Shown: positions 35,349-39,008 of the stretch, in pieces
Numbering within the stretch: position 1 is the stretch's first letter
How the letters are laid out: each line of letters starts with the position of its first letter
Origin: Cyanobacterium sp. T60_A2020_053
Lineage (GTDB): Bacteria; Cyanobacteriota; Cyanobacteriia; Cyanobacteriales; Cyanobacteriaceae
Direction: 5' to 3'
DNA: 53,822 nucleotides
NCBI GenBank assembly: GCA_015272165.1
Contig: JACYMF010000061.1
Span: 1-53,822 of the forward strand
Position numbers and translations under genes: made by a program
The notes under the pieces: model-generated
Told to the model about the DNA's origin: nothing
Database searches by the model: none
Seen by the model: the letters and a program-made list of their open reading frames with translations, nothing else

Positions 35349-36995
<1,647 letters not shown>

Positions 36996-37055: not shown

Positions 37056-37082
37056 GGGTGGGCAATGCCCACCCTTTTTTTA
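37056..37082 (+). terminator. groEL terminator
   Basis: GGGTGGGCA-A-TGCCCACCC (37056-37074) followed by a T run is a textbook intrinsic terminator 60 bases past the groEL stop. An upstream weaker hairpin, TTGGGTTT...AACCCAA, is at 37013-37038. The strong hairpin occurs again at 38984-39002. Confidence 0.88.
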
Positions 37083-37162: not shown

Positions 37163-38014
37163 GTGGTCAAAATTTTTTCTCCAAAACAGCAAAATCCGAA
37201 TTTTTTATCAAATAAACTCATTGGTATAGACGAACAAAAAAAAACATTAGAAGCATTTTGTCAATTTGTTTGGTCACAAGATTGGCAAGAACAATCTAAA
37301 ACACTTCATTTTATGTCAACTATCCTATTATATGGTCCTCCTGGTACTGGAAAAACCTCATTGTTAAAAGAAATTGCCAACAATTTTGAAATAAATGGTA
37401 TTAAATATTATCGAGAAAGTTTAGACCTTTTAGTTGACAAAGAGTTGGGGGAAACATCAAAAGCAATTAAAGAGTTATTTGACCAAATTATTGAACAGGG
37501 AAAATGTGGAAAAAAAGTATTTTTACAGTTAGATGATATAGATTCCGTGTTATCTTCCCGTTTTATGAGTAATGAATCATCAGGAGTGAGACGAGGAGTC
37601 AATACATTCTTAATACAACTCGATGAATTATTACAAATAGAATTTGAATATACGCCTATAATTGCGGCTACAACAAATATGTTTTCAAATTTAGATTCAG
37701 CTATTAAAAGGAGATTTTCCTTAAAGATTAAAGTTGATCCTATTTTAAATAGAATGCAACTTGAGGATTTGTTAAGTCCTATTGAAAAAATAATTGGTAG
37801 TCAATTACAAATTAATTATGATTTAATAGAAAGTATTACTAAAGAAAAAAAACTTACTCCCTATGATATTATATTAGTTATGCAAAAGTTATTTTTAAAT
37901 AGCTTAATTGGAAATGAAATTAAATTTCAACAGTTTACTGATGAATTAAATAGTTCTGAATCTTCAAAAGTCTCTTTTGAAAAACAAGAACAGGCTTATT
38001 CTTTACTTCAATAA
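37163..38014 (+). CDS. AAA+ ATPase of a four-gene accessory operon
   Basis: The start is GTG at 37163 after AGAGGTAG. The 283-residue protein is a single classic AAA module: Walker A GPPGTGKT (58-65), ELGETSKAIKELFDQ (the usual GES-type stretch, about 94-108), Walker B VFLQLDDIDS (119-128) with D125 where most have glutamate, sensor 1 AATTN (N172), and arginine finger AIKRRF (R183, R184). No N-terminal recognition domain or protease motif. It resembles Vps4/p97-like AAA domains. It heads an operon with three small unknown genes, and is AT-rich compared with groEL. Confidence 0.85.
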   Translation: MVKIFSPKQQNPNFLSNKLIGIDEQKKTLEAFCQFVWSQDWQEQSKTLHFMSTILLYGPPGTGKTSLLKEIANNFEINGIKYYRESLDLLVDKELGETSKAIKELFDQIIEQGKCGKKVFLQLDDIDSVLSSRFMSNESSGVRRGVNTFLIQLDELLQIEFEYTPIIAATTNMFSNLDSAIKRRFSLKIKVDPILNRMQLEDLLSPIEKIIGSQLQINYDLIESITKEKKLTPYDIILVMQKLFLNSLIGNEIKFQQFTDELNSSESSKVSFEKQEQAYSLLQ

Positions 38015-38023
38015 AGGAGGATT

Positions 38024-38251
38024 ATGACAGAGACAAGAAGTTCAGGAAGGAAAGCTATTGATTCATACATAAAACATGAGGATATAGTTGATAATGCCGT
38101 TAAATTAGGTCAAAAGAATGGCTTAAAAGTAGAGGCGACTCAGGGTAATGACTCAAAAGGGGACATCAAAGTAGCAAAGGAAGATTCAAAAAAATATTTG
38201 GATTTACTAGCAGATACTATTGATAAAAATCAAGCAAGGAGAAATAAGTAA
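38024..38251 (+). CDS. Small protein of the AAA operon, unknown
   Basis: A 75-residue basic protein nine bases after the ATPase stop, with a strong AAAGGAGG ribosome site. It contains KNGLKVEATQGNDSKGDIKVAKED (about 30-53). That stretch loosely resembles the G-x-x-V...G-D-I/V part of restriction-nuclease-like folds, but no full motif is present. Its last base is shared with the next start codon (TAATG), so translation is coupled. No known family. Confidence 0.75.
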   Translation: MTETRSSGRKAIDSYIKHEDIVDNAVKLGQKNGLKVEATQGNDSKGDIKVAKEDSKKYLDLLADTIDKNQARRNK

Positions 38252-38475
38252 TGTCTGAAAATTCTGATTATATTGAGGTTAAATCATATTCTTCGGCTAT
38301 CCCTCCAAGTAAAGCAAAAAAAATAGCTAAACAAGGAGTTTCAGGAGTTATCTCAGGTGGTCGCATATCTGATGAATCAAAAAAGATATTTAATAAGCAT
38401 GGTATATGGCATAGAGAAAATGTTGAACCTAGTGATTTAGAATCTGAAAGTAGAGAAATTGAAAAGGAGAATTAG
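38251..38475 (+). CDS. Small protein of the AAA operon, unknown
   Basis: A 74-residue protein beginning MSENSDYIEVKSYSSAIPPS. E-V-K at 9-11 recalls the E-x-K half of a PD-(D/E)xK nuclease site; the following SKAKKIAKQGVSGVISGGRISDES region looks like helix-strand-turn. If so the preceding protein could supply the aspartate; this is speculation. It overlaps the previous stop by one base and ends one base before the next gene. Confidence 0.72.
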   Translation: MSENSDYIEVKSYSSAIPPSKAKKIAKQGVSGVISGGRISDESKKIFNKHGIWHRENVEPSDLESESREIEKEN

Positions 38476-38476
38476 T

Positions 38477-38887
38477 ATGGATTTTGACTTTTATGATAAA
38501 AAATTAAAACCAGTTGGGACAGTTAGTGTGGGGGCGGAATTAATGAAAAAAATTATGTCAACTACAACTATTCCTAAATTAGAAACTAATGGAGAACTTC
38601 CTCTAGATAGTTCTCTTGATAATGACGAAGACGAACTCAGTGATTTGATTACATTGTCAACTATTGAAAAAGATTTTATTGGTAAAGAATTAAGTGAACT
38701 TTTATCTGGGGAATTTTATAAGGAAATTGAGGAAAAAAAAGGAAATTCAATATCAGATTATGATGAAACAGTAAAAAAGAAAGTATCCGATGACAATAGA
38801 AATACTTACAAAAGCAACCCGCAAGTTGTTGTAGAGTTGCTTTCATATCTTGTAAATGACGATATTACTCATTTTCGTTTAGGTTAA
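38477..38887 (+). CDS. Last gene of the AAA operon, unknown acidic protein
   Basis: The ATG at 38477, one base after the previous stop and preceded by AAAGGAGA, gives 136 residues, MDFDFYDKKLKPVGTVSVGA.... The protein is acidic with a likely disordered middle (ETNGELPLDSSLDNDEDEL) and a helical C-terminus (VVVELLSYLVNDDITHF). No motif is recognised. It might be the substrate or adaptor of the AAA ATPase; nothing in the sequence proves it. Twenty-nine bases after its stop begins the second groEL tail. Confidence 0.75.
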   Translation: MDFDFYDKKLKPVGTVSVGAELMKKIMSTTTIPKLETNGELPLDSSLDNDEDELSDLITLSTIEKDFIGKELSELLSGEFYKEIEEKKGNSISDYDETVKKKVSDDNRNTYKSNPQVVVELLSYLVNDDITHFRLG

Positions 38888-38916
38888 TAAGCTAGGCTGC
38901 ATTTAATTGGCTATTT

Positions 38917-38958
38917 AAAGGTCAAGCCCTTGCTGGTGGCGGTGACTTCGACTACTAA
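38917..38958 (+). pseudogene. Second copy of the groEL 3' end
   Basis: Forty-two bases encode [13 protein letters not shown] and a stop, matching the end of groEL (36954-36995) with four base differences: one changes Pro to Leu, three are silent (TTC/TTT, GAC/GAT, TAC/TAT or similar third-base changes). There is no start or body. The pattern of silent changes suggests the copy came from a related groEL, or has been here a long time. Confidence 0.9.
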
Positions 38959-38983
38959 AATTTAGTTAGTTTAGATAATTGTA

Positions 38984-39008
38984 GGGTGGGCATTGCCCAC
39001 CCTTTTTT
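38984..39008 (+). terminator. Duplicated groEL-type terminator after the AAA operon
   Basis: GGGTGGGCA-T-TGCCCACCC followed by six T residues, the same hairpin as at 37056-37074 apart from the central base. It lies 25 bases after the second groEL tail and should end the AAA operon transcript. Confidence 0.85.

Follow-up and report, generated by a model that had tools for sequence, protein, structure and literature searches.

What is the small operon that stands directly behind groEL in Cyanobacterium sp. T60_A2020_053 (Cyanobacteriaceae), and how did it come to occupy that position? The window, i.e. the whole stretch of 53,822 nucleotides analysed here (contig JACYMF010000061.1 of assembly GCA_015272165.1, positions 1 to 53,822 of the forward strand), carries at this place a single-module AAA+ ATPase followed by three small genes, which we call p2, p3 and p4. 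A sequence-only reading had described them as a self-contained accessory system built around the ATPase. We show that the four genes are a horizontally moving cassette of cyanobacteria, and that the conserved core of this cassette is the trio p2-p3-p4, with the ATPase coupled to it and dispensable. As to function, we tentatively propose, as the likeliest of the readings weighed below, that p2 and p3 are the halves of one catalytic PD-(D/E)XK domain, with p4 as their partner and the ATPase as a switch, the whole forming an ATP-gated conflict module.

A horizontally moving four-gene cassette

The cassette and the repeats that flank it are made up as follows.

36953-36995, plus strand: groEL 3' end, upstream copy of a 43-bp direct repeat (repeat comparison, 91% identity to the downstream copy)
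37056-37080, plus strand: terminator-like hairpin in the interval between groEL and the cassette, with a matching copy at 38983-39003
37163-38014, plus strand: AAA+ ATPase of a single module, 283 aa from a GTG start; IetA and TRIP13 are the closest curated models
38024-38251, plus strand: p2, 75 aa, predicted alpha-beta-beta-alpha; family-invariant T39, G46, D47 and D54
38251-38475, plus strand: p3, 74 aa, predicted beta-alpha-beta-alpha-beta; family-invariant E9, K11, I39, K44 and E56; joined to p2 in a single protein in genus g31
38477-38887, plus strand: p4, 136 aa, matching no known family; tandem second copy at seven related loci
38916-38958, plus strand: second 3' end of groEL, displaced, forming the downstream 43-bp repeat copy
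38983-39003, plus strand: terminator-like hairpin 3' of the displaced groEL tail, resembling the post-groEL stretch of relatives

We searched 15 genomes of the family, the window genome included, and 386 genomes sampled from the phylum. The ATPase is present in 2 of the 15 family genomes, the second carrier (G007) belonging to another genus, and a search at E 1e-18 recovered it in 5 of the 386, on which counts we reject a core housekeeping gene conserved throughout the relatives. In G007 the cassette lies at the same place behind groEL as in the window. Between these two genomes the four genes taken as one have a synonymous divergence (dS) of 0.308, as against 0.75 for ilvC, 0.82 for groEL and 1.10 for groES; because the dS of the operon is well below that of its neighbours, the operon moved after the two lineages had split. 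The ratio of nonsynonymous to synonymous divergence (dN/dS) between the same genomes is 0.07-0.20 for all four genes, indicating purifying selection.

The window also retains a probable trace of the insertion. A second groEL 3' end and a second terminator follow the cassette, and the displaced tail together with the stretch behind it resembles the post-groEL stretch of relatives that have no cassette. The simplest reading is that the cassette arrived with a groEL tail of its own and displaced the native one. This diverged duplicate suggests that, in the lineage of the window, DNA could enter at the 3' end of groEL. No second groEL tail was seen in G007, and no integrase gene was seen by eye beside the cassette in the window. 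The G+C content of the cassette is 29.5%, with 34 of 521 window stretches of equal length as low or lower, and its neighbours, as read by eye, are groEL and ilvC.

Open reading frames and sequence bear out the tightly coupled four-gene operon that had been described at this locus. One base (38251) is shared by p2 and p3, one base separates p3 from p4, and purine-rich ribosome sites are visible by eye 5' of p2 (aaaggagg) and p4 (aaaaggaga), the likely start of p4 being the ATG at 38477, not the upstream TTG. Likewise, the ATPase motifs were confirmed by motif reading and the Pfam AAA model (E 1.5e-22, far above chance), and the small genes indeed belong to no recognised family in that no Pfam or NCBIfam model is matched by p2-p4 above its curated cut-off.

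The trio as conserved core

Relatives, gathered mainly through p3, were read at 37 loci (the window and 36 others). An intact ATPase is found at 10 of these, and at all 10 p2, p3 and p4 are complete and in order 3' of it; the five genomes recovered by the ATPase search at E 1e-18, in all of which the trio adjoins the ATPase, are among them. Two further loci (L177 and L197) hold an ATPase fragment, and at 25 no ATPase was detected within the stretch fetched, some of these stretches stopping at a contig edge. The four genes thus keep their order at several genomic sites, and the small genes are linked at every locus with an intact ATPase. What the sequence-only reading had called a self-contained accessory module stands, whereas its placing of the ATPase at the centre does not, because the trio persists at 25 of 37 loci where no ATPase was detected, and at those compared it is under selection. 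Six pairs of trio-only loci, picked by hand, gave 18 comparisons; dN/dS is 0.10-0.35 in 17 of them, and the 18th has no valid dS.

Relatives of p3 occur in 12 of the 386 phylum genomes when a single sequence is used as query and in 15 when a profile is used, the latter figure including a match in G375 that is not counted as a relative. They are unevenly spread among families, with p3 matches in 26 of 61 genomes in the family of G053 and in 5 of 145 in that of G253, remnants counted in. One locus (L008) has the match coordinates of G142, a genome of the same order as the window genome. Beyond the cyanobacteria, coverage is that of a search with the window p3 as sole query, whose reach is limited to close relatives. 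The match in G375 (L079:972-2420) was rejected as a cassette relative: it is a 482-aa chaperonin-like protein with about 22-25% identity to haloarchaeal thermosomes over its longer matches.

The gain or loss of the ATPase can be seen at a single site. In one family (f7) the interval between purA and rplY, genes named by eye, holds the full operon in G540, G538 and G532 and the trio alone in other genomes (e.g. L025, L026, L028 and L195); because both occupy one site, the ATPase alone was lost or gained there. Across this family (L025, L028, L192-L194) the genomes differ in whether the interval carries all four genes, only the trio, or remnants. Nine trio-only genomes were searched with an ATPase profile for an unlinked ATPase. 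Their best matches are IetA-type in G362 and G140 and otherwise mostly FtsH-sized proteins, and no p2-p4 match was found at ten loci of those ATPases. A distant ATPase may act in trans in the trio-only genomes.

No source of the trio emerged from mobile elements: the p2 and p3 profiles found no match in IMG/VR, one p3 (L191) found none among phage records, and a plasmid search with one p3 (L030), one p4 (L191) and the window ATPase (E 1e-15) was likewise empty. The ATPase profile matched at least 44 viral loci in IMG/VR, at 25-46% identity except for two short P-loop matches. Nor is the trio named in the protein libraries. In addition to the missing Pfam and NCBIfam calls, the window p2-p4 match nothing in PHROGs or in PADLOC (at E up to 5), the latter matching the ATPase only, and the p2-p3 consensus yields in PADLOC just a weak BrxL row (E 0.0037, 14 bits). 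No publication on the trio was found in the literature, by title or by passage.

A small gene set that lives on by itself under purifying selection brings to mind a toxin-antitoxin-like pair, in which p2-p3 would be the toxin, with its chemistry left unspecified and no nuclease identity required, p4 the antidote and the ATPase an optional regulator. The pattern of damage fits this. The first copy of p4 is intact at 36 of 37 loci, and where p2 or p3 is damaged (L023, L181, L182, L187 and L078) p4 is whole at four of the five loci, a bias that is nevertheless weak because the damaged loci are only five. A second, tandem p4 is present at seven loci of one cyanobacterial family, intact in L025, L182, L183 and L186 but broken in the other three (L026, L184 and L187), and in G203 the trio has decayed to a remnant. 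The neighbourhood is suggestive as well: near the trio, L008, L027, L179 and L185 have genes that by eye we take to resemble toxin-antitoxin or XisH-XisI pairs. Directly beside the trio in L179:4890-5635 (G463) are open reading frames that we presume to be an XisI/XisH pair, an apparently XisI-like frame lies near it in L185, and downstream of it in L027:5809-7008 (G132) is what we take to be an AbrB-MazF-like pair with a minimal nucleotidyltransferase-like frame. Against all this, the second p4 is broken at three of its seven loci and no toxin, antitoxin or DNA-binding family matches the trio above cut-off, and we regard this explanation as improbable.

p2 and p3 as apparent parts of one protein

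In all three genomes of genus g31 (G140, G526 and G527, in the last at L199:3259-3717) p2 and p3 are one unbroken protein. The two look like two parts of one protein, and we found no evidence for the roles of dedicated adaptor and substrate that had been proposed for the small genes. Both carry invariant residues: T39, G46, D47 and D54 of p2 in 32 of 32 non-redundant rows (H18 in 31), and E9, K11, I39, K44 and E56 of p3 in 33 of 33. Not counted among these rows are duplicate sequences, the p2 of L023 and of L181 and the p3 of L187 (all three broken), and both L077 and L078; the p2 of L182, a patched sequence, is included. The p2 model is alpha-beta-beta-alpha (pLDDT 70.5), with D47 just before the second strand, and that of p3 is beta-alpha-beta-alpha-beta (pLDDT 72.8), with E-x-K in the first strand.

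The PD-(D/E)XK core has the element order alpha-beta-beta-beta-alpha-beta. Taken together, p2 and p3 reproduce this order, except for the last helix of p2, in separate low-confidence models, and the invariant D (p2 D47) and E-x-K (p3 E9 and K11) are of the nuclease type, with a catalytic role that is conjectural. In our tentative split-nuclease reading the first helix and the strand beginning with the acidic D47 would come from p2, and the E9-x-K11 strand followed by helix-strand-helix-strand from p3. The p2-p3 pair would be the active unit and p4 a partner that binds it, restraining or targeting it, and the ATPase, as an optional ATP-driven switch, would remodel or switch the p2-p3-p4 complex without threading substrates. 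Such a module could be an ATP-gated conflict system, either toxin-antitoxin-like or defensive. We infer catalysis, the roles of p4 and the ATPase, and any defence function; that this is an accessory system is supported by our analysis, and a defence function appears plausible.

Profile comparison points in the same direction for p3. In hhalign, p3 scored 25.6 against cyanobacterial Mrr_cat, with two of the 20 rows of that alignment left out, and none of 200 column shuffles scored as high; with more rows the score was 26.7, reached by none of 150. The alignment pairs Y-I-E-x-K of p3 with I-Q-A-K of Mrr, so that the E-x-K strand and TTGxIT of p3 align with the Q-x-K strand and TTGxFT of the Mrr restriction endonucleases. 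From these enzymes p2-p3 differ in being two genes of about 70 residues each, in having an extra helix between D and E-x-K, and in finding no Pfam call. Among the 50 matches listed for p3 in a viral model library an Mrr protein ranks 4 and restriction endonucleases rank 27, 46 and 50; RNA polymerase subunit 5 is found at ranks 11, 12, 18 and 40, and a thermosome at rank 17. A single p3 member out of 12 matched NucS_C (E 0.097). Other matches of p2 or p3, to DUF6899, uridylate kinase, MarR, MCM winged-helix and designed-barrel proteins, were judged to be chance, and the fold matches of p2, with secretion-ring domains leading and ACT-like domains lower, are not believed, as all have Z 6.0 or less.

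Several observations weigh against a split nuclease. Compared with Mrr, p2 alone is not significant (33 of 200 shuffles as high), and no convincing fold match for p2 was obtained. The natural p2-p3 fusions match nothing in Pfam, and the consensus finds no Pfam nuclease either. In all three fusions D and E lie 46 residues apart with a helix between them, which is long for PD-(D/E)XK. Among the viral-library matches listed for p3 dCMP deaminases outnumber nucleases, the structure models of p2 and p3 rest on two sequences each, and in two close full operons dN/dS of p2-p4 is 0.40-0.63, on few changes. Finally, chaperonin apical domains outscore Mrr for p3 in hhalign (36.0 vs 26.7).

This last result leads to a different proposal, namely a protein-remodelling module in which p3 would be a tiny, lidless apical domain of the group II chaperonin type (thermosome, CCT) that binds unfolded proteins or a partner, p2 and p4 would complete the binding unit, and the ATPase would set free or remodel what is bound. 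These apical domains are the best fold and profile match of p3. The window p3 matches Cpn60_TCP1 of Pfam at E 3.2e-4, and 4 of 12 p3 members do so at E up to 5; the score of 36.0 was obtained against nine haloarchaeal thermosomes and one bacterial chaperonin, at a probability of 68% and with none of 150 shuffles as high. Among the PDB fold matches listed for the p3 model (pLDDT 72.8), chaperonins account for 43 of 50 in Foldseek and 47 of 50 in VIA, with Z up to 8.6, and p3 aligns with 3j02 (lidless Mm-cpn) over 68 residues at 24% identity and 2.8 A. By eye, the E56 column of p3 is E in 4 of those 10 chaperonins, but the K44 column is K in none. No Foldseek match falls below E 0.001 (best E 5.9e-3), and a best Z of 7-8 is, according to the note that accompanies VIA, usual for models with no clear match. 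The p3 family consensus reaches Cpn60_TCP1 only at E 0.035-0.05, the window p3 scores 20 bits on PF00118, below the curated cut-off of 34.3, and GroEL itself scores only 18.3 with p3 in hhalign. Moreover, p3 stands alone at 74 residues with neither lid nor equatorial ATPase domain and has further invariant charged residues, and a chaperonin origin leaves the p2-p3 fusion and D47 and D54 of p2 unexplained. If true, a bacterial AAA module would be using a free-standing mini apical domain. We consider this unlikely, placing it behind the split nuclease and ahead of the toxin-antitoxin-like pair.

We lean slightly towards the split nuclease because it accounts at once for the p2-p3 fusion and for the invariance of D, E and K. 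Counted in its favour are also the linkage of the four genes at 10 of 10 loci, the invariance, the recent transfer, the selection on the trio alone, the survival of p4 beside damaged p2 or p3, and the conflict setting, in which IetA-IetS directly follows groEL in G362 and G140 has a shortened IetA there.

The ATPase and the groEL site

The motifs of the window ATPase are intact (Walker A GPPGTGKT, Walker B FLQLDDID, sensor 1 TTN and arginines IKRRF). Among the 10 members of the cassette ATPase family the arginine pair of IKRRF and the N of sensor 1 are invariant, and the DDID form of Walker B is restricted to the window, G007 and L008, the other seven having LDELD. Pore loop 1 is KELG, PALG or PSLG and has no aromatic residue in any of the 10, whereas it is FVG or YVG in four FtsH-type proteins compared from the same genome and contains F in IetA of G362. 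Because of this missing aromatic residue, the cassette ATPase would appear from its sequence to work as a switch or a remodeller, not as an unfoldase that threads its substrate.

Among curated models, those matched best by the ATPase are IetA (PADLOC E 4.2e-28, 97 bits; NCBIfam E 7.2e-23) and TRIP13 (E 5.2e-17), which raises the question of whether the cassette belongs to IetAS, or to TRIP13-HORMA CBASS, its partners having gone unrecognised. On the side of likeness, the ATPase is of the same AAA class as IetA, true IetAS occurs at the same groEL site in G362, and TRIP13/Pch2-HORMA CBASS likewise sets a single-module AAA ATPase beside small conserved partners, its switch-type remodelling being a plausible analogue. 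Nevertheless, on the PADLOC IetA model the window ATPase reaches 97 bits compared with 274 for the IetA of G362; it has 283 residues instead of 351 and does not have the pore-loop F. The NCBIfam IetA model (NF042959) gives it 81.3 bits with a cut-off of 510; this cut-off is no test of membership, because the true IetA of G362, standing beside IetS, also falls below it at 227 bits. In Pfam, NCBIfam and PADLOC none of p2-p4 matches a protease, a HORMA protein or a cyclase; the cassette has three unrelated small partners where G362 has the IetS protease. Because protease, HORMA and cyclase are absent and the IetA score is low, the ATPase is a member of neither system; such membership is already contradicted and strikes us as very improbable.

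Ternary NTP-dependent conflict systems composed of MoxR, vWA and VMAP have been described in multicellular bacteria including cyanobacteria, and include restriction-endonuclease effectors (PMC7159879, PMC10907252). They combine an AAA ATPase with partner proteins as the cassette does, but the component parts differ: p2-p4 match none of MoxR, vWA and VMAP, and the ATPase finds only a bpMoxR row, below cut-off.

The position behind groEL is shared more widely than the cassette itself. In G362 (L209:2244-8084), from a different cyanobacterial family, groES-groEL is followed directly by IetA (PADLOC E 4.9e-82) and the IetS protease (8.5e-58), and in G140 (L210:1197-3778) a shortened IetA follows groEL at the same position as the window cassette; no second groEL tail is visible at either locus. 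These finds are two of the nine trio-only genomes searched for ATPases and do not come from a systematic survey of the groEL site. One and the same position, in two families of cyanobacteria, thus holds two distinct AAA cassettes, of which one is a known anti-phage system; this lends indirect support to a possible anti-phage role of the window cassette. The likeliest explanation is a conflict-gene hot spot, the alternative being that genes at this site share expression with the chaperonin. A fixed functional tie to groEL was rejected as not general, as the full operon of G540, G538 and G532 lies between purA and rplY and others lie elsewhere. The fuller proposal, in which a nuclease split into a D-half and an E-x-K-half, together with a third small protein, is licensed by a non-threading AAA+ switch and forms a mobile cyanobacterial immunity that has the groEL site in common with IetAS, we hold to be doubtful, ranking it between the plain split nuclease and the chaperonin reading.

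The trio p2-p3-p4 is a conserved, selected gene set that is unnamed in any of the four libraries searched. The repeated absence of the ATPase provides natural experiments on its contribution, with the purA-rplY interval as a natural series in ATPase presence, and the natural p2-p3 fusion makes the architecture directly testable with very small proteins. With two AAA cassettes behind groEL, the site is worth surveying for defence genes in cyanobacteria. If p2 and p3 are indeed a split nuclease, the trio would contain an unusually small effector under the control of an AAA+ switch.

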